DNA of 32,784 bases, taken from NCBI GenBank assembly GCA_022826025.1, contig JAJDVR010000212.1, forward strand, positions 1 to 32,784. Direction: 5' to 3'. The stretch comes from Gemmatimonadota bacterium (GTDB taxonomy: Bacteria > Gemmatimonadota > Gemmatimonadetes > Longimicrobiales > Gaopeijiaceae). Position 1 is the first letter of the stretch. The number at the start of each line of letters is the position of its first letter. The notes under the pieces were generated by a model. It was not told the origin of the DNA, ran no database searches, and saw only the letters and a program-made list of their open reading frames with translations. Made by a program: the position numbers and the translations under genes. This document shows positions 10,915-30,020 of this stretch, piece by piece.

Positions 10915-11499
10915 ATGTCAGTTACGAACCCCAACCCGGATTCGGCGCAGCACGACGCCCTGACGTCGCTGATGGACGAGATCCGCGGGGGATCGGAGCC
11001 GGCCCTGGGCCAGCTGATGGACCTGTGCTGGCCCGAACTGGTGCGCTACGCGGCGAGTCAGCTGGGCGATGTCGACCTGGCGCGGGACGTCGCCCAGGAG
11101 GCCTTCATCCAGGTCTGGGAACGGCGGCGCGGATGGCGTCCGCGAGGCTCCGCGCGGGTCTACCTGTACCGCATCGTCCGTCATCTGGTCATCGACGAGA
11201 AACGCCGGCGGGCGGTGCGGCGGCGCTGGCAGGACCGGCAGGGGCGGGACGATGCGATGCGGGGCGGACAGGCCGCGACCCCGGCCGACGTGCTCGACGC
11301 CAGGCTGCTGGCCGACAGGCTCCGGGCCTCGGTCGCGTCGCTCCCCGACCGCCGGCGCGAGGTGTTCGAGCTTGTGTTCCAGCGGGGCCTTTCCCACGCG
11401 GAAGCGGCCGCCGTGATGAACGTTTCGGCGCAGACGGTGGCGAACCAGATGTCGGCCGCGCTCCGGACCGTTCGCCGGGCGGTGGCGGCCGATGGCTGA
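10915..11499 (+). CDS. ECF sigma-70 factor
   Basis: 194 residues, the normal ECF size. Region 2 spans about 31-98, with the core-binding helix DVAQEAFIQVWE (58-70) and VYLYRIVRHLVIDEKRR (82-98) for -10 recognition. Region 4 spans about 137-190: LPDRRREVFELVF, then the HTH LSHAEAAAVMNVSAQTVANQMSAALR in outline. There is no region 3 and no extra C-terminal domain. It is the first gene of the six-gene surface-signalling operon, with the FecR-type anti-sigma factor next. Its targets probably include its own operon. Confidence 0.95.
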   Translation: MSVTNPNPDSAQHDALTSLMDEIRGGSEPALGQLMDLCWPELVRYAASQLGDVDLARDVAQEAFIQVWERRRGWRPRGSARVYLYRIVRHLVIDEKRRRAVRRRWQDRQGRDDAMRGGQAATPADVLDARLLADRLRASVASLPDRRREVFELVFQRGLSHAEAAAVMNVSAQTVANQMSAALRTVRRAVAADG

Positions 11500-11601
11500 C
11501 CTGGCCCCGCGTCTCGTTCGCATGGTAGCCGGCGGCAGGCTGTGCGCTTGTCCGGTGTAGGGCACCGGTTCCCGGTCGGAACCACGGAGGGATCGAAAGA
11601 G

Positions 11602-12621
11602 ATGGACGAACTGTTGCTAAAGCATCTGCGCGGGCGGACGACCGACGACGAAAACCGGTCGGTCGAGGCATGGCTCCGCGAGAACCCGGACGCCGAAGAG
11701 GAGGTGAACGACCTCCGCCTGCTGGTCGAAGCCGCGCGCGCCGCCGATCTGGAGGTGGAGCCCGGCGCCCCGCCCGCCACCGACCTGGTGGTCCGCGGGG
11801 CCGAAGCCCGCAGGACCGCCGCCATCCGGCGCGCAAACGACCGGGCGCGCAGCCGACGCGCGCGCTCCCGTTTCGGCCTGTTCGCGGGCTGGGCCACCGC
11901 GGCCGCGTGCGCGGCGGCGGCCCTGGTCATCTGGAACGCCCGCGCCCCGGCCCCGAGCGCCCCGGCCGGGGGCAGCCTGGCGTCCCAGGAATTCATCACC
12001 GCGCCCGGCGAGACCGCGATGGTCCGCCTGGGCGACGGCAGCGTGATCCGCCTGGGTCCGGGCAGCCGGGTGCGCAACGTGGACGGATCCGCCCGGGCCG
12101 TCGTCCTCGAGGGCGAGGCGTTCTTCTCCATCGCCAGCAACCCGGCACAGCCGTTCCGGGTCACCACCGCGGCAGGCACCGCGCGCGTCCTCGGAACACG
12201 CTTTCATCTGGTCGCCCAGCTCGACGAACTGCGATTGGTCGTCGTCGAAGGAACGGTCGCGCTCGGCACCGCGACCGAGGAGGTCCAGGTCGGCGCCGGG
12301 CAGGCGGCGAGCATCATCGAAGGCCGGCCCGGACCCGTAACCGAGGCGCCCCCGATCGAGGAGGCGGCCGCCTGGCTGGAGGGCTTCGTCATCTTCCAGG
12401 ACACCCCTCTGGCTCTCGCCCTTCGGGAAGTCGAGCAACGGTACGGCGCGGAAGTTGCGGTCGAAGATGCCGTGCTGCTGGAGCGGACGCTGACCATGTG
12501 GTTCACGTCGAAATCCCTGGACGAGGTCATGACCGTGATCTGCAACGTCATCGACGCCCAGTGCAGCATCGGCGACGGACGGGTTCGGATGCGGCTGCGC
12601 AACGCGGACGAGGGTCGATGA
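11602..12621 (+). CDS. FecR-type transmembrane anti-sigma factor
   Basis: 339 residues from ATG 11602, which has GGAGG eleven bases upstream; an in-frame ATG at 11542 is less likely. Residues 1-60 are the cytoplasmic sigma-binding part, followed by an Arg-rich juxtamembrane stretch (70-90) and one membrane helix (FGLFAGWATAAACAAAALVIW, 91-111). The periplasmic FecR domain runs about 130-230 (ITAPGETAMVRLGDGSVIRL, VLEGEAFFSI, VLGTRFHLV, LVVVEGTVALG). The C-terminal part (255-335; FQDTPLALALREVEQRYG) is the STN-like domain that receives the receptor signal. The stop overlaps the receptor ATG by four bases (ATGA), so receptor and anti-sigma should be made in step. Confidence 0.94.
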   Translation: MDELLLKHLRGRTTDDENRSVEAWLRENPDAEEEVNDLRLLVEAARAADLEVEPGAPPATDLVVRGAEARRTAAIRRANDRARSRRARSRFGLFAGWATAAACAAAALVIWNARAPAPSAPAGGSLASQEFITAPGETAMVRLGDGSVIRLGPGSRVRNVDGSARAVVLEGEAFFSIASNPAQPFRVTTAAGTARVLGTRFHLVAQLDELRLVVVEGTVALGTATEEVQVGAGQAASIIEGRPGPVTEAPPIEEAAAWLEGFVIFQDTPLALALREVEQRYGAEVAVEDAVLLERTLTMWFTSKSLDEVMTVICNVIDAQCSIGDGRVRMRLRNADEGR

Positions 12622-15335
12622 TCCCGGAACGGAATCGCGGGATCCGCCGGATCACCTCCATGGTGGTCGCGGCCACACTCGTCCTCATCCCCTCCTCCCT
12701 CACCGCCCAGGACACCGAGCTGACCGCGCTCAGGGGCGAAATCGGGGTCGATCCCGAGCCCGGCACCCTGCTCGCAGCCGTCGCCCGCCTCTCCATCGAC
12801 CGGATGCCGCTCTCCGAAGCTCTGGTCCAGCTCGCCGCGCGTTCCCGGATCCAGATCGCCTTCAGCCCCAGCCTCCTCCCGTCGGACCGCGTCGTCGACT
12901 GCGACTGCGCGACGAGAAACGTTGCGCGCACGCTGGACGAGTTGCTGGCCGGCACCGACCTGGGCTACGTCGAGCTGGGTTCCCAGGTCATCATCGTGCC
13001 GCGCGCGCCGCGGGAAGCGTTGCCCATGGATGCGAGCGTGAGTGGCAGGGTGCGCTCCCGGATCGGGATCCCGGTGGCGGGCGCCACGGTCCGTCTCAGG
13101 CTGCTGGCGGACACCACCGTTCAGAGCGTGACCGGCACCGACGCCCTCGGGTTCTTCGCGTTCCGCGATCTCGTGGCCGGCCGGCATCGTCTGACGATCG
13201 GCCGCATCGGCTACGGGCTCCACGATCAGGAGATGGAGTTGACCGCGGACGCCGATCTCCAGGTCGAGATCTCCCTCGCGGAAGAGGCAATCGAGCTGGA
13301 TGCCGTGGTCGTCGAGGCCCGGAGGAGCCGCGAGCGGGCACGTTTCGAGGAATCCGCGGGAATCACGGTGCAGGAACTGAGCGTGGCGGAGCTCAGGAAC
13401 ATGCCGGGGTTCGCGGAACCGGATCCGATGCGGGCCGTGAGCGTTCTCCCGGGCGTGACCCGGGTGTCCGACTTCACCGCCGTCCTGAACGTGCGGGGCG
13501 GCTCGGGCGATCAGAACCTCATCCTGATGGACCGCCTGCCGCTGTTCCATCCCTACCACTTGCTGGGGATCTTTTCGGTGTTCAACCCGGACATGGTCGG
13601 GCGGGCCGAGCTCCGTTCCGGGGGCTTCCCGGCGGAGTACGGAGGCCGCGCGTCGTCCGTGCTGCTCGTGGAGTCCGACGTGGGAGACGGTACGCTGGGC
13701 GTCGATGCCGGGCTGGGTCTGATCTCCTCGCGCGTGGCGGTGCGAGGCGGTCTCGCGCCCGGGGTCCGGGACGGCCTGGGGCTCGGCGCCGCGCGCTGGA
13801 AGATCTCGGCACGCCGCAGCTACTGGGACCTGGTGACCAGGCTGACCGGCTCCACGTTCCCGTACAGCCTCGCGGACTTCCAGGCCATCTTCGAAGGTTG
13901 GACGAAGGGAGGCGACCGGGTGCGCATCAACGCGTATTCGGGGCGCGACAGGATCCAGCTTCGGGACCTCGAGTTCATGTTCACGAGCCTGGAGTCCGTT
14001 GTGGACGATGTTGCCGACAACCAGGACCCGGGCTGGGACGTCCGATGGCCCTGGGGCAACGACGCCGTCGGCGCATCCTGGACCCATCTCATGCCCGAGG
14101 GCGGGACGCTCGAGGTCCACGGCTCGTACTCCCGCTTCGGAGCGCGGTTCAACTTTACGGAGTACGAAGACACGCGTCTGGAGACGGAAATCGGCCAGTC
14201 TTCCCTCGGGGCCGACCTGGAGCTCCGTCCCACGTCGCGCACGCGATGGAAGTCGGGGTTCGCGGCCACCCACAGGGAAAGCCGCAACCTTTCCGAGGGC
14301 GTTCCGCCGAATTTCCAGAACAGCTTGAGCCGCGGCTGGGAGTCGGGCGCGTACACGCAGTTGGCCTGGACACCGAACCGGCAGTGGCTGCTCGAGGCCG
14401 GGCTGCGCTGGGACCACTGGCGACCGGGGGACGGCCGAACCACGGGCACGCTGTCGCCGCGCGTCGCCGTCAAGCGCTTCCTGGGCGACGGGCGCTGGGC
14501 GGTGCGCATGGCGGGCGGACGCCACACGCAGTTCCTGCACTCCCTGCGGGACGAGCGGATGCCGATCGGGCTGGATGCGTGGATCCTGTCGGGCGAGCAC
14601 GTGCCGGCGCTGATCTCCGATCAGGTCCAGGCGGGCGTGGAGGGCTTCTTCGGCGGAAACCGCGAGTGGTTCGCTTCGGCCGAAGGGTACTTCCGCACCT
14701 ACGATGGCGTGGTCGCGCAGAACTGGACCGACGATCCCGCTGATCCGGCGGACGATCTGCTGGCAGGCGAAGGACGCTCCTACGGGCTCGACGTCATGGT
14801 CCGAAAGGACGCGGGGACGACCAGGGGCTGGGTGTCCGCGTCTCTCCTGAAGGCCACGCGGACGTTTGAAGACACGGACGCGGGCCTGGTTCCGGCGCCC
14901 GTCATCGAGTTTCCACCGATCTTCGACCGGTTTCTGGAAATCGACGTGGCCATCCAGCGCGATCTGCCCTGGGACCTGGTGGCCGGCGTTCGCTGGAACC
15001 TGGGCACGGGCACGCCCTACACGCGTCAACTGGCGAGATTCCGGAAGTACGAGCAGCGGCTCAACGATCTGCGCTTCGACTACGCGGGCAGGATCTCGGT
15101 GCTCGGACCCAGAAACGGGGCCCGGCTGCCCGCCTACCACAGGCTGGACGTCAGCTTCCGCAAAACGCTGCGCAGGGGTTGGGGCAGCCTGTCGCCCTAC
15201 CTCGGTGTGATCAACGTCTACAATCGCAGCAACGTGCTGTGGCACCAGCGCCACTACAACGGCGGGAACCTCAGCAGGCTCGAGAACCGCATGCTCCCGA
15301 TCCTGCCCACCATTGGCCTGGACGTGTCGTTCTGA
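12618..15335 (+). CDS. TonB-dependent outer-membrane receptor with N-terminal STN signalling domain
   Basis: 905 residues from ATG 12618, which overlaps the fecR stop. Signal peptide 1-31 (cut after LTAQ). STN domain 40-139 (EALVQLAARSRIQIAF, TLDELLAGTDLGYVELGSQV). A carboxypeptidase-regulatory-like beta-sandwich follows at 140-233 (SGRV...VAGATV..., GRHRLTIGRIGY). The TonB box is probably within ELDAVVVEA. The plug starts about 245 (VSVLPGV, VLNVRGGSGDQNLILMDRLP, GGFPAEYGGRASSVLLV), and the 22-strand-type barrel ends with LPTIGLDVSF, a terminal Phe as expected for Bam recognition. It should import a ligand with TonB energy and signal through FecR. The ligand is unknown; Bacteroidota-style plug wording does not reveal it. 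Confidence 0.93.
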   Translation: MIPERNRGIRRITSMVVAATLVLIPSSLTAQDTELTALRGEIGVDPEPGTLLAAVARLSIDRMPLSEALVQLAARSRIQIAFSPSLLPSDRVVDCDCATRNVARTLDELLAGTDLGYVELGSQVIIVPRAPREALPMDASVSGRVRSRIGIPVAGATVRLRLLADTTVQSVTGTDALGFFAFRDLVAGRHRLTIGRIGYGLHDQEMELTADADLQVEISLAEEAIELDAVVVEARRSRERARFEESAGITVQELSVAELRNMPGFAEPDPMRAVSVLPGVTRVSDFTAVLNVRGGSGDQNLILMDRLPLFHPYHLLGIFSVFNPDMVGRAELRSGGFPAEYGGRASSVLLVESDVGDGTLGVDAGLGLISSRVAVRGGLAPGVRDGLGLGAARWKISARRSYWDLVTRLTGSTFPYSLADFQAIFEGWTKGGDRVRINAYSGRDRIQLRDLEFMFTSLESVVDDVADNQDPGWDVRWPWGNDAVGASWTHLMPEGGTLEVHGSYSRFGARFNFTEYEDTRLETEIGQSSLGADLELRPTSRTRWKSGFAATHRESRNLSEGVPPNFQNSLSRGWESGAYTQLAWTPNRQWLLEAGLRWDHWRPGDGRTTGTLSPRVAVKRFLGDGRWAVRMAGGRHTQFLHSLRDERMPIGLDAWILSGEHVPALISDQVQAGVEGFFGGNREWFASAEGYFRTYDGVVAQNWTDDPADPADDLLAGEGRSYGLDVMVRKDAGTTRGWVSASLLKATRTFEDTDAGLVPAPVIEFPPIFDRFLEIDVAIQRDLPWDLVAGVRWNLGTGTPYTRQLARFRKYEQRLNDLRFDYAGRISVLGPRNGARLPAYHRLDVSFRKTLRRGWGSLSPYLGVINVYNRSNVLWHQRHYNGGNLSRLENRMLPILPTIGLDVSF
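12735..13034 (+). repeat. STN module, copy A
   Basis: Codons 40-139 of the TonB receptor. It matches copy B (16459-16758) at 84 of 100 residues by hand count, with no gaps, and many codons are identical. Similarity stops at the domain ends, so this is a shuffled or converted module. Confidence 0.85.
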
Positions 15336-16321
15336 TGGGGGCCGGCGCGCGTTTCCTGCTGATGCTTCCGGCGATGGCGGTCGGTGCTGCCGGCTGCGAC
15401 CTGACCGATGTCCGGACAGGGTCCGGCCAGAAGATGCTCGTCGCCTCGGCCACGGTCGTGCTCACGGTCGACCCCGGCGAACCGTCGCGGATCAGCACCC
15501 GGGCGGTCGCGCTGGTCAGCGAGGCCTATCAGCAGGTGCTGTCGGAAGTCCCGGGCGCTTCCGTGCGCATCACCGGTGCGTCGGGACGCTCCGTGTCGCT
15601 GCTGGAGGAAGAAGATCCGCTGGGGGCGTGCACGGTGCTGCCCGAGGATCTGTACGGAACGGACGGGCCCCTGGGGCCGGTCGGCTCCTGCCACACCGCC
15701 ACCGCGGCCTCCAGCCTGTTCGCGCCCGGCGAAGAACTCACCCTCGCCGTGACGACGCCTGACGGAAGCGTGCTGGAGGGGACCAGCCGCATGCCCGACG
15801 CGTTCGCGCCGCAGGGTCTCTCGGTCGAGGGCGGCCGCTGCCGGGTGGAGCCCGGCACCGGCTATCGCTTCGTGTGGCCTCCCGTGGACGGCGCGTGGGC
15901 CCACGTAGGCGAGGCCGAGATCACCGGACTGAGCCCGGGCCTCTGGTCATCGTCCGATCCGCTCTACCTGCCCGTCACCGTGCTCGGCCGGGGACGCGAC
16001 GTGACCGACATGGTCTTCCCCGCGGATTTCCTGCTCGAGTTGCTGTCCGGCGTCGACAACGTGGAGCTGCATCGCACGCTGGACGCGGGGCTTCCCGGGG
16101 GAGCGCGCGCCGAGGTCACCATCGCGGCCCTGGACCGCAACTGGGCCAACTGGATCCGGGAGGGCCGGCTGAACATCAACGGGGAGACCGTGATTCCTTC
16201 GGTCTTCGGCGACGGCACCGGGATGTTCGGAACCGCGGTGCGCTGGAAGGTCTCGGTGGAGTCGCGCGCGGCGGAAGGAGCCGGGGACGTGCCGCTGTGC
16301 GGACCGGGGGCGGCGGGCTGA
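15335..16321 (+). CDS. DUF4249-like lipoprotein partner of the TonB receptor
   Basis: 328 residues. The ATG shares one base with the receptor stop (TGATG). The signal peptide ends in the lipobox AAGC with C21. Strand-rich content: VVLTVDPGEPSRIS, ALVSEAYQQVL, then a 'Ge..tLaVttPDGsvleGtsrmPdaf' segment (about 131-153), reminiscent of the DUF4249 lipoproteins that follow TonB receptors in Bacteroidota. By analogy it may sit on the outer membrane and help the receptor bind or cap its ligand. The family call is by motif wording only; it could be a different lipoprotein family with the same context. Confidence 0.6.
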   Translation: MGAGARFLLMLPAMAVGAAGCDLTDVRTGSGQKMLVASATVVLTVDPGEPSRISTRAVALVSEAYQQVLSEVPGASVRITGASGRSVSLLEEEDPLGACTVLPEDLYGTDGPLGPVGSCHTATAASSLFAPGEELTLAVTTPDGSVLEGTSRMPDAFAPQGLSVEGGRCRVEPGTGYRFVWPPVDGAWAHVGEAEITGLSPGLWSSSDPLYLPVTVLGRGRDVTDMVFPADFLLELLSGVDNVELHRTLDAGLPGGARAEVTIAALDRNWANWIREGRLNINGETVIPSVFGDGTGMFGTAVRWKVSVESRAAEGAGDVPLCGPGAAG

Positions 16322-19047
16322 TGCGGAGCGGGCTGACGCGGAATGGGCTGACGCGAAACGCGGCTCTGCTCGCCCCGATTCTGATCGCCGCATGGCTCGC
16401 GGGAGTCCCGTCGCCCGGGCTCGCCGTGCAGGAAAGCCAGGACGTGGCGCGCCTGACGGGCGAAATCGGCGTCGACCCCGAGCCCGGCAGCCTCCTCGCC
16501 ACCACCGCCCGGCTGTCGATCGAGCGGTTGCCGCTCGCCGAGGCTCTCGTCCGGCTCGCGGAGCGTTCACGGGTCCAGATCGCCTTCAGCCCCAGCCTCC
16601 TCCCCCGGGCCCGTGTAGTCGACTGCGACTGCGCAACGAAAAACGTTGCGCGCACGCTGGACGAGCTGCTCGCCCGCACCGAACTGGGCTACGTGGAGCT
16701 GGGATCCCAGGTCATCATCGTGCCCCGCGCGCCGCGCGAAGTGCTGCCCGCGGATGCTACTCTTGGAGGCCGAGGGGGTGCGGAGGTCGCGGTCGCGGCG
16801 GCGGATGCGCCTGTCGATGCCCAGGCCCCGGGCGAGGCAAACACCTCGGAGGCCTACCTCGACGAAACCGCCCGCCGCCTGGTCGTGGGTGCGCGCGCCG
16901 CCCGCGAGGCCGCCTTGTCGGACATCGAGTCGTACACGGCCATGATCAGGGAGCGCAATTCCGTAGAGTTCTCGATGCTGGTCCGCGGCCGGCCCTTCAT
17001 GCGGCAGGAATCGGCCACCCGTGTCCGCTGGTCGAGGAACGAACCCGCCGTTCTGCGGGTGTTGGGATCCCGCATGGAAGTCGGGGGGCAGCGCTTCAGG
17101 CCCGGCCGGCCCGAAGGGGTTGCGGCACGTTTTGCCGCCGATCCGCTCCGCGATCCGTTCAGCCTCTTCGTGGTTTCCGGCCTGGGTGCCCGCGTGAGAG
17201 AATCATGGTTTGTGCCTTCCGTAACCCCGCTCGACGAAGAGGCGGAGGCGTTCTACCAGTTCCGCTCGGGAGACACGATCTCCGTTCACTTCGCGGGAGG
17301 GTCCGTGCAGGCGGTGAGCGTCACCGCCCACCCCCGCGCCCAACACCTCGGGCTGGTCTTTGCCGTGCTGTGGATCGAGCCCGAGACCTTCGGCGTCGTG
17401 CGGACCTTCTATCGTCCCGCAAAGCCCATCGATTCGGAGTTCAGCCTTCGCAGAAGGAGCGGTTCCCTGGTGGGCCTGGAAGAGGTGTATCGGGCCAAGG
17501 CGCTGGGCGACGTCGAGGCCCCATCGCCACCGCGTCCCGGACTGTCGGGCCGCATATTGAACTACGCTCTCAATGCGGCAATGAACACCCGCATGGAAAT
17601 CGGCGTGCCCGTGGCCGTTGTCGACTACTCCATGTGGGACCTCCGCTACTGGCTTCCGAGGCGAGCGAGCTTTGGACACTACGCCATTACCGGGGACGAA
17701 TGGGACGCCCGGGAAGCCGAGAGAATCATGATGCAGGGGTTTCACGACTGGGACTTCGAGATCGAGCAGGTCTCGACAAGTGCCGCGGATCCACTGCATC
17801 CGGTGCCGGCGACCGAGGAGCTGGTCAAGTCATGGCGCGAGGAAGGTGACACGGTCGTGGTCATGGACGGCTCGCAGCCCGACTCCGGTACCGTGGTGAT
17901 CACGCCTCGCGACTGGCGGGCGCTCTCCGCGAGCGATCTTCTGCCTCCATCGATCTGGGAGGATCGCGAAAGCGGACTTTACGGGAGCATAGTCGACGAG
18001 GCCGGCGAAGTCCTGGACTCCATCGGCATCGCCCGCGGTCCCGACGACCTGGAACGCACGGAGACGGATCAGGACATCAGCCAGTGGCATTTCGAAGCGC
18101 CGGTACTGACCCCGAGGCTAATGCGCTACAACCCGATAGAGGGCCTGTCGGTGGGCAGCCGGCTGGTCCGCGATTTCCCGTGGGGACGGGGCGCGCTGAC
18201 GGTGCGGACGGGAACGCGGCGGACCGAACCCAGCATCGACCTCGCCACGGAGTATGGCCGGACCGGCCCCCGCGTGCGGTTCTCGATCTACCACTCGCTC
18301 CGGGAAGCGGGAGGAACCGTGACCACACAGCGTCCACCACGCTGGGCTTACGTAGCCGATCCGTCCGATTACTACGTCGTCCGCGGGGCCGCAATTCATC
18401 TCCTCCCTCCGAGGAGCGAACGATCCTGGACTTCGCTCAGCCTGTTCTCGGAGACGAACACCACGTTGAACGGCGACGCAAGGAGGCGTCACGGAGTCGA
18501 CCTGTTCTGGAGGCCCTGGTGGGGCGGCCTCACCGGACGCCGGGTGAACGGGGGCGCCGACATCTCGCTGCGGGGACTGGTCGGCGACTATCCCAACGTC
18601 CGCCTGTCGGTCACGGGCATGCTGGTCCTGCCCCTTCCGGCAGACCTGTCGATGGCGCTGGAAGCGGGTGGCGCACATGTCAGGGGAGACCCCGCTCCGG
18701 AAGAGCTCTGGAGGCTCGGGAGTTCCGGTGACTGGCTGCGCGGCTATCCCCAGACCGTGCTGAGCGGGAGACAGGTCTGGAGGAGCCGGATCGAGCTGCA
18801 GCGCAAGGTCAGCCTGGTCGCCCTCGCGGTCTTCCACGACTGGGCGAGGGTGGACGGCAGGAGCCTGCAATCCGCGGGGTTTGGCGTGTCCGCGTTCAAC
18901 GGGTTCGTGCGCGTCGACCTGGCAAGGCCGCTGGCGCCATGGTGGTACAGCGAAGGAACCCCGATCCCGGGGAAGCCGCGCGCGGGCATTGACTGGGCTC
19001 ATGAGCCCGGGTGGGAGTGGCATTTTCGTTTCCTGGCGCCATTCTGA
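16321..19047 (+). CDS. STN-domain outer-membrane protein without plug (DUF5686-like barrel suspected)
   Basis: 908 residues, overlapping the previous stop by one base (TGATG at 16319). Signal peptide about 1-36 (LLAPILIAAWLAGV). STN domain 47-146, nearly the same as the TonB receptor's. Then a Gly/Ala linker (about 147-178), a middle domain (DIESYTAMIRERNSVEF, about 201-217; VVDYSMWDLRYWLPRRASFG, about 433-452) and a C-terminal strand-rich region from about 595 (MRYNPIEGLSVGSRLV) ending in FRFLAPF with a terminal Phe, typical of outer-membrane barrels. I see no TonB box, plug or carboxypeptidase-like domain. The middle part resembles uncharacterised Gemmatimonadota outer-membrane proteins. 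It may feed a second signal, or a barrel-assembly state, to the same FecR. That role is inference. Confidence 0.72.
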   Translation: MRSGLTRNGLTRNAALLAPILIAAWLAGVPSPGLAVQESQDVARLTGEIGVDPEPGSLLATTARLSIERLPLAEALVRLAERSRVQIAFSPSLLPRARVVDCDCATKNVARTLDELLARTELGYVELGSQVIIVPRAPREVLPADATLGGRGGAEVAVAAADAPVDAQAPGEANTSEAYLDETARRLVVGARAAREAALSDIESYTAMIRERNSVEFSMLVRGRPFMRQESATRVRWSRNEPAVLRVLGSRMEVGGQRFRPGRPEGVAARFAADPLRDPFSLFVVSGLGARVRESWFVPSVTPLDEEAEAFYQFRSGDTISVHFAGGSVQAVSVTAHPRAQHLGLVFAVLWIEPETFGVVRTFYRPAKPIDSEFSLRRRSGSLVGLEEVYRAKALGDVEAPSPPRPGLSGRILNYALNAAMNTRMEIGVPVAVVDYSMWDLRYWLPRRASFGHYAITGDEWDAREAERIMMQGFHDWDFEIEQVSTSAADPLHPVPATEELVKSWREEGDTVVVMDGSQPDSGTVVITPRDWRALSASDLLPPSIWEDRESGLYGSIVDEAGEVLDSIGIARGPDDLERTETDQDISQWHFEAPVLTPRLMRYNPIEGLSVGSRLVRDFPWGRGALTVRTGTRRTEPSIDLATEYGRTGPRVRFSIYHSLREAGGTVTTQRPPRWAYVADPSDYYVVRGAAIHLLPPRSERSWTSLSLFSETNTTLNGDARRRHGVDLFWRPWWGGLTGRRVNGGADISLRGLVGDYPNVRLSVTGMLVLPLPADLSMALEAGGAHVRGDPAPEELWRLGSSGDWLRGYPQTVLSGRQVWRSRIELQRKVSLVALAVFHDWARVDGRSLQSAGFGVSAFNGFVRVDLARPLAPWWYSEGTPIPGKPRAGIDWAHEPGWEWHFRFLAPF
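16459..16758 (+). repeat. STN module, copy B
   Basis: Codons 47-146 of the second outer-membrane protein, the partner of copy A at 12735-13034. The two start and end at the same alignment points (GEIGVDPEPG to LP-x-DA). Confidence 0.85.
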
Positions 19048-19883
19048 TGCGCTTCGCATTCGAGGGCTCTATCCCGGTCAGGGCGGCGGTCCTGGTTGGG
19101 GTGTTGCTCATCTGCGGCTATGCCGTCGTGGAGCGGACAGTTCCCTTCAATGACGGTCCACGCGAGCCTGCGGGCGCTCTGCCTCCGCAGCAGGGGGCCG
19201 GCGACCTGCTCAACCGTGGGATCCTGATCGAAGGCGGTACATTCACCAGTGGCAGCGATGACTGGGACACGATAGTCGCCCCCGGCAGTCCGTATTCGAA
19301 GAGGGACGAGTATCCGCGCCGGCGGACGGTCCCGGGCTTCTGGATGCAGGAGCACGAGGTGACGAACGAGGAGTATCGGCGATTCGACGCGGGGCACGCG
19401 TTCCCTGCCGGGGAGGAGCGACACCCGGTCGTCAATGTCACCTGGCGGGAAGCCATGGCCTACGCGGTCTCCCTTGGTGGAAGTCTGCCGACCGAGGTGC
19501 AGTGGGAGTTCGCGGCGAGAGGCTCGGAGAGACGGAGGTACCCGTGGGGCAATTCGGAGCCGACGTGCGACCGCGTACACTACCGCTCCTGCAACCCGAG
19601 GGGGGCGATCGAGGTCATGGCCCGGCGGGAGGGCGCCACGCCGGAAGGCCTCTACGATCTGGCGGGCAACGTAGCGGAGTGGGTCACGCCCATCTGGTTC
19701 GATCCGGGGAGAACGCCCGTGAATGACGAATCGCGCAGGCTGCGGGGCGGCTCGTTTCTGTCCCCGCCGTTCGCCCTGCGAGCCGCGCACCGGGTCAACT
19801 ACCTGTACTCCGGCTTCGAGTCGGAGGATGTCGGGTTTCGCGTGGTGTGGCCGTTGGACGGCGGGCGGGACCGACCAGGCTGA
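19047..19883 (+). CDS. Membrane-anchored FGE/SUMF1-fold protein lacking the catalytic cysteines
   Basis: 278 residues; the ATG shares one base with the preceding stop. An N-terminal hydrophobic helix (RAAVLVGVLLICGYAVV, 12-28) acts as an anchor or signal. The formylglycine-generating-enzyme/sulfatase-modifying fold spans about 58-268: IEGGTFTSGS, EHEVTNEEYRRF, PVVNVTWREAMAYA, LPTEVQWEFAARG, YPWGN, LYDLAGNVAEW, RRLRGGSF, GFRVV. True FGE has a cysteine pair in the stretch after RGGSF; here it reads LSPPFALRAAHRVN with none, and the protein's only cysteines are C23, C174 and C182. So formylglycine formation is unlikely. The fold is also used by nonheme-iron oxidases and by binding or structural proteins. 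Last gene of the operon; role unknown. Confidence 0.88.
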   Translation: MRFAFEGSIPVRAAVLVGVLLICGYAVVERTVPFNDGPREPAGALPPQQGAGDLLNRGILIEGGTFTSGSDDWDTIVAPGSPYSKRDEYPRRRTVPGFWMQEHEVTNEEYRRFDAGHAFPAGEERHPVVNVTWREAMAYAVSLGGSLPTEVQWEFAARGSERRRYPWGNSEPTCDRVHYRSCNPRGAIEVMARREGATPEGLYDLAGNVAEWVTPIWFDPGRTPVNDESRRLRGGSFLSPPFALRAAHRVNYLYSGFESEDVGFRVVWPLDGGRDRPG

Positions 19884-23390: not shown

Positions 23391-25547
23391 CTACCCTCCC
23401 AGCACGTTGAACTGCCGGGTGAACTTGACGATGAACGACCGCGCCAGCGGACCGCTCTCGACGAAGTGACCGCCATTGGGGTTGAGCCCATCGTGGAAGT
23501 CGAAGCCCTGCACGTTGTTGTAGACGATGAAGAGCCCGGTTCCGGCCGTGTTCAGCCAGCCGAAGCGAAGGTTGGCGGACCACGCGTCTATCTGACTGGA
23601 GCGCTGGATCAGCGACTGCACGTAGATGCGCGGCGTGAAGAAGTAGCCGAGGTTCAGCCCCAGCAACACCGTCTCGAACTCGCCCTCGGGCAGATTGATG
23701 TCGAAGTAGTTGATGCGCGCGGAAGTGCTGAACGACGCGTTCGGCCGGAAGGTGACGGAGGCGTCCCCACCCGAGCGCGATCCGCTCAGGAAGCTGCCGA
23801 TGTTGGTGCTCGCTCTCATCGACAGCCGGGCGGCCGCGTTGGTGTTGAAGACCAGGTTGGTCTCCCAGCCGCGGTACGTTCCCTCGGGCACGACCACGTC
23901 CGTGCCGCGAATCCGGAACGGCTGGTAGAGCCCCTCCGTGACCAGATTCATGCCGGTGTTGATCTGCGCGCCCGAGGGCCACTCCCAGTGTACGTCGATG
24001 TGTAGAAAGCCCGATTCCTGGAAGCCCTTTTCGACCCCCGCCTTGCGGCTGTGGAAGGTGTTGTACAGGACGTGCGGCCGGACCTCGCGGAGCCACGTGG
24101 GCCGGATCTTGTACATGACGAAGCCCTGGTAGTACCGGAAGCCCCGGCGCGGCAGGAAGCCCACCTCCGGGTTGAACCCCTCGCCGATTTCCCTGACCGC
24201 GGCCGTGATCTCGAGGTCCCGGCTGGTCCAGCCCGTCGACAGGTCCCAGGCGTATTCGTCGCCGCCTGTCCCGGGCCCGTCGGTCCTGGACGTAAAGCTG
24301 CTGAGGGTAATGGCCTCCCCGATGCCCAGCGCGCCGTCCACCGCATAGGTGCGGTTGAAGTCGCCGTCCGCACCACCCCGGTTGATGAACAGGCCGCCGA
24401 CCCGCGAACGATTGGGCAGCTCCCTGGCAACGCGCGCTACCGAATACCCCTGCGGATCCTGCAGCCCGTCGGCTCCGTCGGTCTCGATGTGCAGCAGCCC
24501 GACGTTCATCCCGGCGGTCCGCCCGGAGAGCCGCGCGCCCCCCTTGATCGGCACCGGCTGACCGTCGGCGATGCCGATGGCGCGGCTGAAGAACAGGTCC
24601 GCGCCTCCTCCTCCGACGGTGAAGAACCCGGCATTCTCGAGGAAGAACGGCCGCTTCTCCGGGAAGTTGAGACGGAAGCGCGTCAGGTTGAGCTGCTGGT
24701 CGTCGACCTCGACCTGGGCGAAGTCGGTATTGTAGGTCACGTCCAGCGTGAGCCCCTGCGTGACCTGGAACTTGACGTCGCCGCCGACGTTGCCGTCCTG
24801 ACCGAAGCCGGTCTCGGTAGCGCTGGTGTAGTCCCGCGCCGTCGAGCCCAGCACGTAGGGAGTCATGGTGGCAAGGCGCTGGAACGGAGGCCGCAATCCC
24901 TCGAGATCCCCGGCGTAGTTCAGCCGATAGAGGTTGAATTCCCGCGGCACCGGGGTCCAGAACGACTCTTCGTTCAGGCGCCGGATGCGCCGGGCCACGT
25001 TGAAGCCCCAGGTCTCCGCGTCGTTCCCGTAGCGCAGCGTGTTGAAGGGGATGCGGAACTCGGCGTACCAGCCTTCCCCGTCGGTCGTGGTCGCGACCGT
25101 CCAACTGCCGTCCCAGTTCTTGTTGAAGCCCCCGCCGGAGCCCGACTGGAAGCGCTGGCGCGAGTTGAATCCGCCGCCTCCGAACCGGCCCCCGCCCCGC
25201 CCCTCGTTGGCGACCTGGCCATCGTACTCGATGCCGGTGGGGGTGGTGCCGAAGATGAAACCGTTCTGGTCGTCGTTGTACGTGTCCAGAACGAAGACGA
25301 TGGCATCGCTCTCCGTCACCTCGAAGTCGCGGATGCGCTCGCCGTAGGTGATGTTTTCGGGTTGGCTGTCGAACGCCCATACGCCGACGTAGAGGGCCTC
25401 GGCGTCGAATACGACCCGGACCTCGGTGCGCTCGCTGGCGGGCTGCCCGTCCATGGGCTCGCGCTGCGTGAAGCCGGTCATGACCTGGGCCTCCTGCCAG
25501 GAGGCCTCGTCAAGGCGGCCATCGATCGTCGGCGCCTCGGTGACCTC
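23391..25547 (-). repeat. Long direct repeat, copy 1 (DUF5916 body)
   Basis: Codons from EVTEAP to the stop. The other copy is at 27623-29773 in the same orientation, two codons shorter. The two proteins are near-identical over long stretches, for example [14 protein letters not shown] and [14 protein letters not shown]. Direct orientation means recombination could delete the 4.2 kb between equivalent points, including doxX, copC and copD. Confidence 0.85.
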
Positions 25548-25739
25548 CGCCGCGGTGGCGATCACCGGAAGCGGGACCCCCGAGCCGTCGTTGCCCGGAT
25601 CCATCTGCGCGTTCTGGGCCTGCAGAGGGCCGGCTGCAAGGAAGGCGGCAATGCCGAGTGGCATGGCGATGACCGAACGGCGGGCGACGAGTGTGGCTCG
25701 CCCGACCGTGCCCGACTCCGAGAGGTTCTGGGATAACAT
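23391..25739 (-). CDS. DUF5916-type outer-membrane protein with CBM9-like N-terminal domain, copy 1
   Basis: 782 residues; the ATG at 25737-25739 has GGAGG six bases upstream. Signal peptide about 1-42 (cut after LQAQ). Residues 65-260 are a CBM9/DOMON-like domain ([83 protein letters not shown]). The rest is a strand-rich barrel ([41 protein letters not shown]) ending in [11 protein letters not shown]. Such proteins are common in Bacteroidota and Gemmatimonadota and are thought to handle an oligomeric substrate at the outer membrane; none is characterised to my knowledge. Last gene of a minus-strand cluster with doxX, copD, copC and a near-copy at 27623-29908. Confidence 0.87.
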   Translation of the reverse strand: MLSQNLSESGTVGRATLVARRSVIAMPLGIAAFLAAGPLQAQNAQMDPGNDGSGVPLPVIATAAEVTEAPTIDGRLDEASWQEAQVMTGFTQREPMDGQPASERTEVRVVFDAEALYVGVWAFDSQPENITYGERIRDFEVTESDAIVFVLDTYNDDQNGFIFGTTPTGIEYDGQVANEGRGGGRFGGGGFNSRQRFQSGSGGGFNKNWDGSWTVATTTDGEGWYAEFRIPFNTLRYGNDAETWGFNVARRIRRLNEESFWTPVPREFNLYRLNYAGDLEGLRPPFQRLATMTPYVLGSTARDYTSATETGFGQDGNVGGDVKFQVTQGLTLDVTYNTDFAQVEVDDQQLNLTRFRLNFPEKRPFFLENAGFFTVGGGGADLFFSRAIGIADGQPVPIKGGARLSGRTAGMNVGLLHIETDGADGLQDPQGYSVARVARELPNRSRVGGLFINRGGADGDFNRTYAVDGALGIGEAITLSSFTSRTDGPGTGGDEYAWDLSTGWTSRDLEITAAVREIGEGFNPEVGFLPRRGFRYYQGFVMYKIRPTWLREVRPHVLYNTFHSRKAGVEKGFQESGFLHIDVHWEWPSGAQINTGMNLVTEGLYQPFRIRGTDVVVPEGTYRGWETNLVFNTNAAARLSMRASTNIGSFLSGSRSGGDASVTFRPNASFSTSARINYFDINLPEGEFETVLLGLNLGYFFTPRIYVQSLIQRSSQIDAWSANLRFGWLNTAGTGLFIVYNNVQGFDFHDGLNPNGGHFVESGPLARSFIVKFTRQFNVLGG

Positions 25740-26304: not shown

Positions 26305-27183
26305 TCAGCCCTCGAGTGGCGGCGTCCGCGCGAGCAACGCCGCGATCAGAATGACCACATGGGCGACGGTCAGCTCCCGGATTGCGTTGCGGCGCAGCGG
26401 CCTTGCTCCACCGACGCCCCAGAGTCGCGGAGTCAGCACTCTCCAGTTCACGGCTCCCAGGATCAGTACGACCACCACCAGCCCGACCTTGGTCAGCAGG
26501 ATGCGCCCGTAGCTCGTCGAGACCAGGGCGTCGAGTGACGCGACATGAAGCCAGGATGCCAGGACGCCCGTTCCGATCAACAGGGCGCCCGCGATGAGCG
26601 CGACCTGGGAGAAGAGCGGCAGGACTTCGGCCAGCAGGGCGTTGCCCCGACCGGTCTCTCGGCGTTCTCTGAGTTCGGCGATGAGCACGAAGAACAGGCC
26701 CCCGATCCAGCTTCCCGCGGCGAGGACGTGGAGGAAGTCCGCGGGAATCGAGAGCCAGCGCAGGCCTTCCGTGGCCGCCGCGTGACCCATAAAGGCGGGA
26801 AAGGCGCACATCGCCCCCGCAAGCGAACTCGCCACGATCCAGGCCGCGCGCCGGGCCTCCGACCCCCTGCCATCCGGCGCCGCGAAGACGAAGGCCGCGA
26901 CCGTCACCAGCGCCCCGACCGCCAACAGTCGCCAGCTCAGGCCCCAGTCCGTCGCCAGGAGCACCGAAGCGTCTTCCTGCCAGGGCACGAGCGGATCGCG
27001 AAAGTCGCGAAGCTGTCGCCAGAAGAGGAGCCCAACGCCCGCCACGAGCGCCGTCGAACCCACCAATCCCACGGTGCGGGCCGCCGCAATGACGGAGTGA
27101 CGCCGCCGACCCAGCACGCGGGGCGCAATGAGCCAGCGGCTGGACGCCGCCCCCCATGCGGTGATCAGCCCGGCAAGGAACAA
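26305..27183 (-). CDS. copD: CopD-family copper-resistance/transport membrane protein
   Basis: About 292 residues from TTG 27183, with eight likely membrane helices. CopD features: FPAFMGHAAATEG and IPADFLHVLAAGSWIGGLFFVLI (conserved His residues for copper), and RILLTKVGLVVVVLILGAVNW near the end. CopD moves copper across the inner membrane, with CopC as the periplasmic carrier. The start is odd: the frame stays open upstream through natural-looking sequence (RPIADALVGW) back into the 3' end of copC, but has no ATG, GTG or TTG there. So TTG 27183, which cuts into the first helix, or a non-standard start such as ATA near 27236, is used. Confidence 0.85.
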   Translation of the reverse strand: MFLAGLITAWGAASSRWLIAPRVLGRRRHSVIAAARTVGLVGSTALVAGVGLLFWRQLRDFRDPLVPWQEDASVLLATDWGLSWRLLAVGALVTVAAFVFAAPDGRGSEARRAAWIVASSLAGAMCAFPAFMGHAAATEGLRWLSIPADFLHVLAAGSWIGGLFFVLIAELRERRETGRGNALLAEVLPLFSQVALIAGALLIGTGVLASWLHVASLDALVSTSYGRILLTKVGLVVVVLILGAVNWRVLTPRLWGVGGARPLRRNAIRELTVAHVVILIAALLARTPPLEG

Positions 27184-27622: not shown

Positions 27623-29773
27623 CTATCCCCCCAGCACGTTGAACTGCCGGGTGAACTTGATGATGAGGGAACGGGCCAGCGGCGCCCTGTCGTAGAACCG
27701 TCCGGCGCCGTCGTCGAGGAAATGGATCTCCTGGACGTCGTTGTAGACGATGAAGAGACCGGTCCCGGCCGTGTTCAGCCAGCCGAAGCGAAGGTTGGCG
27801 GACCAGCTGTCCACCTGGTTCGAGTACTGCACCAGCGACTGCAAATAGATGCGCGGGGTGAGGAAGTAGCCGAAGTTCATCCCCAGCAACACCGTCTCGA
27901 ATTGCCCTTCCGCCAGGCTCACGTCGTAGTAGGTCACGCGCCCCGAGGTGCTGAACGACGCACTGGGCCGCAAGGTGACGGAGCCGGTGCCGCCCCAGCG
28001 GCTGCCGCTGAGGAAGCTGCCGGCGAAGATGCGCGACGTCGCCGACAGCCGGGCGATCGGATTGCTGTTAAAAACCAGTTGCGTCTCCCAGCCGCGGTAG
28101 GTTCCCACGGGCACCGTCACGTCGGTGCCGCGGATCTGGAAGGGCTCGTAGATGCCTTCGGTGACGAGGTTGGCGCCCGTATGGATCTGCGCCCCCGAGT
28201 GCCACTCCCAGTGGGAGTCGATGTGCAGCCGGGCCGATTCCTGGAATCCCCTCTCGATCCCGCTCTTGCGGCTGTGGTAGGTGTAATAGGAAACGTGCGG
28301 CCGGATCTCGCGCAGCCACGTGGGACGGATCCTGTACATCACGTGGTACTGGTAGTACCGGTAGCCCCTGCGCGGCAGGAAGCCCACCTCCGGGTTGAAC
28401 CCCTCCCCGATCTCCCGGACCTGACCCGTAAGCGAAAAGCTCCGCATGTTGAGGTTGCCGGAGAAGTCCCAGGCGTACTCGTTGTTGCCGGCTTCCGGCC
28501 CGTCGGTTCTGGCGACGAAGGAGCCGAAGGACAGTGCCTCCCCCACGCCCACGGCGGCATCGACCGCCTGGGTGCGGTTGAACTCGCCCGCCGGTCCGCT
28601 CTTGTTGATGAACAGGCCTCCGACCCGCGAACGATTGGGCAGCTCCTTGGCGAGGCGTGCAACCGAGAACCCGTTGGCGTCCGCCCCGAGGTCGCTCACG
28701 CCGTCGGTCTCGATGTGCAGCAGCCCGACGTTCAGCCCTGCGGCCCGGCCCGAGAGCCGCGCGCCCCCCTTGATCGGCACCGGCTGGCCCTGGTGGATGC
28801 CTATGGCGCGGCTGAAGAAGAGGTCGGCGCCCCCGCCGCCCACGCTGAAGAAGCCCGCGTTCTCGAGGAAGAAGGGCCTCTTCTCGGGGAAATTGAGCGC
28901 GAAGCGGGTGAGGTTGAGCTGCTGGTCGTCGACCTCGACCTGGGCGAAGTCGGTGTTGTAGGTGAGATCGAGAGTAAGGCCCTGGGTGACCTGGAACTTG
29001 ACCTCGCCCCCCACGTTGCCTTCCTGGCCGAACCCCGTCTCGGTGGCGCTGGTGTAGTCGCGCGCGGTCGAGCCCAGCGCGTAAGGGGTTACCGTGGCCA
29101 GGCGCCGGAAGGGGGGCTGCAGCCCCTCGAGGTCTCCCGCGTAGTTGAGGCGATAGAGGTTGAACTCCCTTGGAACCGGGGTCCAGAACGACTCCTCGTT
29201 GAGACGCCGGATGCGGCGGGCCACGTTGAAGCCCCAGCTCCTGACGTCGTTGCCGTACCGCAGCGTGTTGAAGGGGATGCGGAACTCGGCGTACCAGCCC
29301 TGGTCGTCGGTGGTGGTCGCGACCGTCCAGCTGTCGTCCCAGTTCTTGTTGAAGCCGCCGCCGGAGCCCGACTGGAAACGCTGCCGGGTGTTGAAGCCGC
29401 CACCCTGGAAGCGGCCGCCGCCGCGGCCCTCGTTGGCGACCTGCCCGTCGTACTCGATGCCGGTCGGGGTGGTGCCGAAGACGAAGCCGTTCTGGTCGTC
29501 GTTGTAGGTGTCCAGCACGAACACGACGTTGTCGCTCTGGCGCACCTCGTAGTCCCGGATTCGCTCGCCATAGGTGATGTTGTCCGGCTGGCTGTCGAAC
29601 GCCCACACCCCCACGTAGAGCGCATCCGAGTCGAACACGACCCGGACCTCGGTCCGCTCGCTGGCGGGCTGCCCGTCACTGGGCTCGCGCTGCGTAAACC
29701 CGGTCATCACCGAAGCCTGCTGCCACACCGCCTCGTCGAGGTAGCCGTCAACGCTCGGGCTTTCCGTGACCTC
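27623..29773 (-). repeat. Long direct repeat, copy 2 (DUF5916 body)
   Basis: Partner of 23391-25547. The signal peptides and the linker before EVTE are not similar, so each copy has its own export signal. Confidence 0.85.
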
Positions 29774-29908
29774 CGTAGCGGTGGCGACCGTAGGAAGGGC
29801 CCCTCCCGGCGCTCCGTTCGCGGGCCCCGACTGGGAGTTCTGGGCGAGCAGCGGACTGGCGGCAAGGAGGGCCAGAATACATGCGGACAGAGCGGGACAG
29901 GAATTCAT
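27623..29908 (-). CDS. DUF5916-type outer-membrane protein with CBM9-like N-terminal domain, copy 2
   Basis: 761 residues from ATG 29908, which has AGGGAG five bases upstream and begins a clean signal peptide ([17 protein letters not shown], 7-23). A longer open frame to 30004 lacks these features. Domain layout as in copy 1: CBM9/DOMON-like about 46-240, then barrel, ending in the same [11 protein letters not shown]. Differences cluster in short loops (e.g. [27 protein letters not shown] near the end), plausibly surface-exposed. It heads the minus-strand cluster copy 2, copC, copD, doxX, copy 1, which suggests an outer-membrane partner of a copper or redox function, though the pairing could be incidental. 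Confidence 0.87.
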
Positions 29909-30020
29909 GAGGCTCCCTTGCCAATTGGTGGCTGCACAGTCCTGTAATTTCGCAGAAACGCCGGGCCTTCGCCAGAGAGCGCGGGCGGGTTGAGCGCGCG
30001 TCACCCTCTCGCAGGTTTCG

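Follow-up and report, generated by a model that had tools for sequence, protein, structure and literature searches.

Cell-surface signalling is usually described with one receptor, one anti-sigma factor and one sigma factor. In systems of the FecIRA, PupIRB and FpvIRA type, an ECF sigma factor is combined with a FecR protein carrying an STN-like C-terminal domain and with a TonB-dependent receptor (TBDT) carrying an N-terminal STN domain. According to the accessible parts of two studies in Pseudomonas, the STN domain of PupB binds PupR in a 1:1 ratio (PMC7186176) and the STN domain of FoxA shields FoxR from proteolysis before the signal arrives (PMC11637429). The nearest described case that we found of an STN domain on a non-receptor protein is VreA of the PUMA3 system (VreA/VreI/VreR) of P. 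aeruginosa, encoded beside the genes of an ECF sigma factor and a regulator. In the accessible text of that report, VreA is a small protein lacking a barrel, has a TolA/TonB-like C-terminal domain and replaces the receptor (PMC2729926).

The window analysed here is the whole stretch of 32,784 nucleotides, taken from a Gemmatimonadota genome that is 92.3% complete with 5.8% contamination. It holds a locus which resembles FecIRA, PupIRB and FpvIRA in its ECF sigma factor, its FecR and its TBDT. Unlike these systems, the operon adds a second STN protein of another class and a lipoprotein neighbour, and its receptor has a CarboxypepD_reg domain between the STN domain and the plug. With PUMA3 it shares an STN domain on a non-receptor protein beside sigma factor and regulator genes; unlike VreA, this protein has an Omp85-like barrel and accompanies a full receptor, which sets the locus apart from the VreA type. 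The second STN protein also resembles DUF5686/Omp85-superfamily proteins, having an Omp85-like barrel, an LRG[YH] motif and a body common to 38 ORFs devoid of an STN domain, but differs from them in carrying an STN domain between signal peptide and body and in belonging to a FecR operon. RseB guards an anti-sigma factor, and the middle domain of the second STN protein finds MucB, RseB and the LolA superfamily in Foldseek searches (TM-scores of about 0.2); unlike in RseB/MucB sensors, the domain is here fused to an STN domain and an Omp85-like barrel, and FecR takes the place of RseA as anti-sigma factor. In the open-access literature, we found no paper on an STN domain joined to an Omp85-type protein and none on DUF5686.

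The six genes of the locus (positions 10915-19883) encode an ECF sigma factor, FecR, the TBDT, a lipoprotein, the STN-Omp85-like protein and an FGE-domain protein (Table 1). A sequence-only reading had proposed a six-gene ECF/FecR operon; every gene was recovered where that reading had placed it, and Pfam backs the sigma factor, FecR with FecR_C, the parts of the TBDT and the FGE-sulfatase domain. The overlaps of 1 or 4 bases that it had claimed for every junction from fecR on were found as well, fecR and the TBDT gene sharing 4 bases and the TBDT/lipoprotein, lipoprotein/STN-Omp85-like and STN-Omp85-like/FGE junctions 1 base each. Between the sigma factor gene and fecR lies a gap of about 100 bases if fecR is taken to start at ATG 11602; its frame is already open from GTG 11542 upstream. 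Adjacent sigma factor and fecR genes, a FecR_C domain and a TBDT with STN domain, plug and barrel in the same operon mark the locus, by its architecture, as FecR-type cell-surface signalling, and the FecR protein matches PupR in the PDB (6ovk_R, E 2.2e-5). The best NCBIfam match of the sigma factor is TIGR02985, under the cut-off of that model. A patterned pair was sought upstream of the sigma factor gene as ECF promoter motif in 7 genomes of the genus, and none was found; a short stretch immediately 5' of the sigma ATG is conserved in these genomes.

Table 1. Features of the sigma-fecR operon, given in positions of the window.
Feature	Position	Strand	Basis or remark
ECF sigma factor, 194 aa	10915..11499	+	Pfam Sigma70_r2, Sigma70_ECF, Sigma70_r4_2 above cut-off
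FecR anti-sigma factor, 339 aa	11602..12621	+	Pfam FecR 6.8e-18, FecR_C 6.7e-9
TBDT, 905 aa	12618..15335	+	STN (residues ~41-136), CarboxypepD_reg, plug, barrel; Pfam
Receptor STN domain, 96 residues compared	12738..13025	+	
Lipoprotein, 328 aa	15335..16321	+	at most weakly DUF4249-like
STN-Omp85-like protein, 908 aa	16321..19047	+	
STN domain of the Omp85-like protein, 96 residues compared	16462..16749	+	
STN-body linker, fast evolving	16750..16845	+	dN/dS 0.46-0.63; AF2 pLDDT <50 at residues 138-173
Middle domain, possibly LolA/RseB-like, and second beta-rich part	16846..18090	+	AF2, Foldseek
Predicted Omp85-like barrel, LRGY at residues 806-809	18091..19044	+	AF2, Foldseek
FGE-sulfatase-domain protein, 278 aa, N-terminal hydrophobic segment	19047..19883	+	Pfam FGE-sulfatase 4.7e-39

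Pfam DUF4249 matches were obtained for 4 of the 15 members of the lipoprotein family (best E 0.0033), the window's own member being unmatched; the lipoprotein gene adjoins the receptor gene in the sister genus as well. Formylglycine-generating enzymes have a catalytic cysteine pair near the C terminus. In the translation of the FGE-domain protein, read by eye, the C-terminal RLRGGSF...R.A.R region contains no cysteine and hence no such pair; an NCBIfam match to GldK lies below the cut-off. Elsewhere in the window, two DUF5916 + CBM9_1 proteins are encoded on the minus strand (23394-25739 and 27626-30004), with a CopD-domain protein between them (26308-27183).

In the window genome, the STN domains of the receptor and of the Omp85-like protein are identical at 81 of 96 residues. 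The earlier hand count of 84 out of 100 holds good here, but the pair agrees at only 72-75 of 96 positions in seven other genomes of the genus. BLASTP aligned a longer stretch of both proteins (95/135, E 8e-51). All remaining BLASTP segments had an E of 0.50 or worse, in line with the earlier statement that the rest of the two proteins is unrelated. On the DNA level, the match comprises 266 of 310 bases (86% identity) and has sharp edges. Since it begins past the signal peptide region, leaving both signal peptides out, it is a domain-sized copy. Between the receptor copies (9 genomes) and the Omp85-like copies (8 genomes), 3 of the 96 STN columns have no letter in common. Both window STN domains score under the Pfam STN cut-off (E 0.00069 in the receptor, 0.11 in the Omp85-like protein), and the AF2 model of the Omp85-like protein has an STN-like order of strands and helices in that region. 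A PDB search with the STN alignment gave only two matches, PupA at E 0.68 and, at E 0.79, a viral protein that is unrelated; PupA was used for residue mapping and is not counted as evidence. Gene conversion between the two STN domains of the window genome was considered and is not claimed here. Of 34 sites at which receptor and Omp85-like copies of the other genomes differ, those in the first third are mainly of the receptor type in the window receptor and the later ones mainly of the Omp85 type, and ancestral retention accounts for much of this pattern because the Omp85-type base is the common sister-genus base at many sites. Both window STN domains contain a close cysteine pair (VDCDC; VDCAC in many receptor copies), and the FecR_C domain (12388-12618) has a cysteine pair of its own (CNVIDAQC or CNVIDARC); these pairs are retained in all genus genomes compared.

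The second STN protein is, by structure prediction, an Omp85-like (TamA/BamA) barrel protein. Its AF2 model, of intermediate confidence (mean pLDDT 70.9, pTM 0.65), has a C-terminal barrel, and the 50 matches listed in a Foldseek search against the PDB were all TamA, BamA/BAM, SAM or TOC complex entries (best E 1.6e-8). The TMq of only about 0.25 is due to the alignment covering the barrel alone. A hydrophobic residue followed by RG was found in 41/41 aligned relatives (LRGH in 25, LRGY in 12); we take (V/L/I/F)RG(F/Y/H) to be the loop-6 motif of Omp85 proteins. The earlier description of the protein as a plug-less putative barrel was right, Plug being unmatched and the barrel being placed as Omp85-like by AF2 and Foldseek. 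A degenerate TonB receptor was rejected as its identity on the same grounds and for the absence of Pfam TonB-barrel matches.

In a Pfam scan, the window protein itself matched no barrel family, neither DUF5686 nor Omp85. Among the 41 aligned relatives, 9 matched DUF5686 (PF18939) and 3 matched Omp85 at E up to 1, the best Omp85 match reaching 0.00022 and 21.3 bits against a cut-off of 24. Single scans of 20 relatives gave 8 DUF5686 matches, none above the cut-off (39.2 bits). The best of these was L063 (E 3.1e-8, 32.9 bits), which is 26% identical to the window protein, and 6 of the 8 hit one stretch of the model at about positions 114-186. When the genus was searched, 9 of 11 genomes had DUF5686 matches, all below the cut-off and all outside the sigma-fecR operon. 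Full DUF5686 membership was rejected, the matches being weak, sub-cut-off and confined to distant relatives; hence, we name the protein only Omp85-like and DUF5686-related. The reading in which FecR is shared does not depend on this membership. No POTRA family was matched ahead of the barrel in Pfam scans of the window protein and its relatives. The middle domain, modelled alone with AF2 (pLDDT 72.2), had apoB, MucB/RseB and the LolA superfamily at the top of the Foldseek results (E 4.5e-5 to 1e-3, at the low TM-scores given above), with MucB at E 5.3e-5 and the LolA superfamily at E 3.8e-4 in the PDB. This presumably periplasmic domain is possibly LolA/RseB-like, which we treat as a lead and not as a fold assignment. 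A PDB profile search with the alignment of the whole body of the Omp85-like family gave nothing meaningful.

Searching 395 genomes of the Gemmatimonadota phylum for the second protein (body or STN) gave matches in 201. Stop-to-stop reading of 45 different homologous ORFs gave 7 that match the STN profile (E 5e-24 or better), all of them copies of the operon gene; the best E among the other 38 was 0.11. In most of these 38, the body comes right after a signal peptide, as judged by eye and with some ORFs cut by contig ends. Within the genus, paralogues without an STN domain (L039-L042) are 62-64% identical to the body. The fusion was found in one genus only, in 10 of its 11 genomes, the eleventh (G395) being 67% complete. 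The search across Gemmatimonadota genomes that had been suggested as a check therefore did not leave the STN-Omp85-like gene confined to the window genome. Eight loci of the sister genus (g2; L064-L069, L108, L109) carry a divergent amidohydrolase gene followed by sigma factor, fecR, STN receptor and lipoprotein genes; the stretches read contain no Omp85-like gene and no FGE gene. Around the homologues devoid of an STN domain, neighbours varied in 8 loci inspected by eye, a search for FecR in L039-L063 gave no match, and a sigma factor match (27%, L056) and an FGE-domain match (27%, L053) each lie several kb from the homologue.

In a tree of STN domains, the receptor and Omp85-like copies of the genus form one group apart from the receptors of the sister genus and of g4 (support 96/99). 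The tree has 21 rows; G225 (a near copy), G280 (broken), the receptor STN domains of G086, G280 and G396 and the second STN domain of G396 were left out. The best tree does not unite the Omp85-like STN domains in one clade, as 40% of the bootstraps do, so the direction and time of copying are resolved no further than the genus stem. The simplest history, as far as the sequences tell, is that the Omp85-like and FGE genes joined the sigma-fecR-TBDT-lipoprotein set, and the STN domain was copied, in the stem of the genus. Eight named relatives are MAGs; four of their record titles read Gammaproteobacteria, the others Gemmatimonadetes or BD2-11 clade. These MAGs are presumably from marine sponges, as would fit the BD2-11 papers. 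The four records titled Gammaproteobacteria (L114, L116, L117, L119) carry the operon gene at 83-85% identity and are probably mislabelled Gemmatimonadota.

A search of the genus with the STN alignment showed that the same 10 genomes each have a single receptor copy and a single Omp85-like copy. In G280, the Omp85-like gene is split between two frames close to the end of a contig and gives two STN matches. All six genes stand in order on a single contig in the window genome, G099, G162, G045, G225 and G390, while in G086, G280 and G396 the genes lie on two contigs whose ends are compatible with this order. G086 (L036 2760-3797) and G078 (L037 6021-6986) have an extra small ORF between the Omp85-like and FGE genes, which by eye looks like an outer-membrane barrel. 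To describe selection, the Omp85-like proteins of 7 genomes were compared to that of the window; G225 (a near copy of G045) and the broken second gene of G280 were left out. The dN/dS ratio was 0.09-0.33 in the STN domain, 0.46-0.63 in the linker, 0.26-0.32 in the body and 0.15-0.28 in the barrel. For the receptor STN domain, the same comparison in 8 genomes gave 0.14-0.31. As judged from these ratios, both STN domains are kept by purifying selection since the genus stem.

In PupB, residues 60-80 form the surface that binds PupR, with L74 and H72 being most important (accessible parts of PMC7186176 and PMC11429574). This surface was mapped by hand onto the window STN domains via PupA in an ungapped alignment. 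The corresponding segments are LSEALVQLAARSRIQIAFSPS (receptor) and LAEALVRLAERSRVQIAFSPS (Omp85-like protein). This assignment may be one residue off, for it sets PupB L74 against a Gln of PupA where the accessible text of PMC11429574 gives a Leu. Within each of 8 genomes, the predicted FecR-facing segment is identical between the two STN domains at 16-19 of 21 positions, and none of the 3 fully differing STN columns falls in it. Hence, a second STN domain devoid of this surface, which the sequence-only reading had named as fatal to its model, was not what we found. Columns invariant in both STN sets make up 15/21 of the segment versus 41/75 elsewhere, an excess that is not significant (Fisher p 0.21). 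The PupB-PupR salt bridges have no like-for-like counterpart, Arg standing at the equivalent of PupB H72 and Lys or Arg at that of PupR E292. The mapped FecR-facing surface is thus present and alike in both STN domains, which is no proof of binding.

FecR (PF04773) has a single match in the window genome and one in each of 10 of the 11 genus genomes, with none in the incomplete G395. With one FecR per genome in these 10, both STN domains have one visible partner. The only further Pfam STN match of the window genome falls in a frame of 534 aa elsewhere, and a similar one is present in all 11 genomes. In 23 genomes of the sister genus, FecR and the same type of STN domain occur together (17/17) or are both absent (6/6), with a Fisher p of 1e-5 that overstates the independence of these related genomes; this co-occurrence suggests that the main partner of the STN domain is probably FecR. 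The 17 genomes have one FecR each and one (11 genomes), two (4), three (1) or five (1) STN matches. The earlier view of a single STN receptor for each FecR as the standard was therefore too strict for this family. A single FecR serving several STN proteins appears to be normal in the family, judging from such counts, and the unusual step here is that the extra STN domain sits on a predicted Omp85-like protein instead of a receptor.

Several loci illustrate the range of STN arrangements. In four sister-genus loci (L069, L092, L093, L094), one sigma-fecR pair is followed by two or three STN ORFs, mainly tandem duplicated receptors, which are 72-93% alike in the STN domain and 56-80% elsewhere. 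L100, L101, L103 and L104 have STN receptors without sigma factor or fecR genes in the stretch read, in genomes with a single FecR elsewhere, and may signal in trans. Short frames near sigma-fecR in L092 (14662-14961, 198 aa) and L095 (4080-4418, 258 aa) contain an STN domain with the receptor not continued in frame, being either a broken gene, an assembly error or a stand-alone STN protein. In L105, the sigma factor, receptor and lipoprotein genes of G017 match in separate pieces, as if degraded or mis-sequenced. A locus of another genus (L111) has two STN domains that are 40% alike; it does not enter the arguments made here.

We favour the reading that a single FecR is served by two outer-membrane proteins, the receptor and the Omp85-like protein, so that the output of the sigma factor would depend on both, and put its probability at about 0.6. 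One FecR with two STN partners, already offered by the sequence-only reading, is still the simplest account, given the fusion in 10 of 11 genomes, purifying selection, the 16-19 of 21 identical positions of the FecR-facing segment and a single FecR. The sequences directly support the architecture, the single FecR, the selection on the STN domain and the restriction of the fusion to one genus. Beyond this, we infer that the second STN domain binds FecR, that the two STN domains compete and that cargo is sensed. Both STN domains would bind the one FecR C-terminal domain. If the 1:1 binding of STN domain and anti-sigma factor and the protection by the STN domain described for Pseudomonas hold here, two STN domains would compete for one FecR site, and the sigma factor would be released only once neither of them protects FecR. 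Sigma activity would then depend jointly on the loading of the receptor and on the state of the Omp85-like protein, e.g. when engaged with a lipoprotein or with lipid cargo. Through its possible lipid- or lipoprotein-binding domain, the Omp85-like body would link the second input to outer-membrane assembly or export. In a more far-reaching form, which we regard as speculative and less likely than not, the STN copy would have tied an Omp85-like export or assembly station with a LolA/RseB-like domain to a sigma pathway that senses nutrients. The single FecR would act as a two-input gate that frees the sigma factor only when the receptor has its ligand and the station is in a given cargo state, coupling the induction of uptake to assembly capacity.

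Alternatively, the second STN domain may be a buffer or decoy that binds FecR constitutively, passes on no signal and raises the threshold for sigma release. The fast evolution and low AF2 confidence of the linker would fit such a role, and overproduced receptor STN domain blocks FoxR proteolysis and signalling in P. aeruginosa, according to the accessible text of PMC11637429. A decoy has no need of an intact barrel and middle domain, yet body and barrel are conserved in the 7 genomes compared, and we consider this explanation unlikely. It is quite improbable that the Omp85-like protein docks on the receptor STN domain and tethers the two proteins, with FecR not being a partner: mutual interaction of STN domains has been reported (accessible part of PMC11637429) and both STN domains have a common origin in the genus stem, but such pairing does not require the FecR-facing segment to be retained, and FecR and the same STN type track together in the sister genus. 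Least probable is a chance capture of the STN domain as a mere N-terminal spacer, which would suit a fusion known from one genus only and with a broken frame in G280, but not the far lower dN/dS of the STN domain than of the adjoining linker, the mere 3 of 96 columns that differ throughout from the receptor STN domain or the domain-sized DNA match.

The novelty of the locus is that an unrelated Omp85-like protein encoded in the same operon bears a signalling domain of the receptor type, while only one FecR is seen in each genome. Should both STN domains bind, ligand uptake would be integrated with outer-membrane assembly or lipid handling, and the operon would also be a natural domain-transplant experiment that may tell what an STN domain alone suffices to do. 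The one to five STN matches beside one FecR per genome in the sister genus suggest that the wiring of many STN domains to one FecR is tolerated, and make the general question testable.
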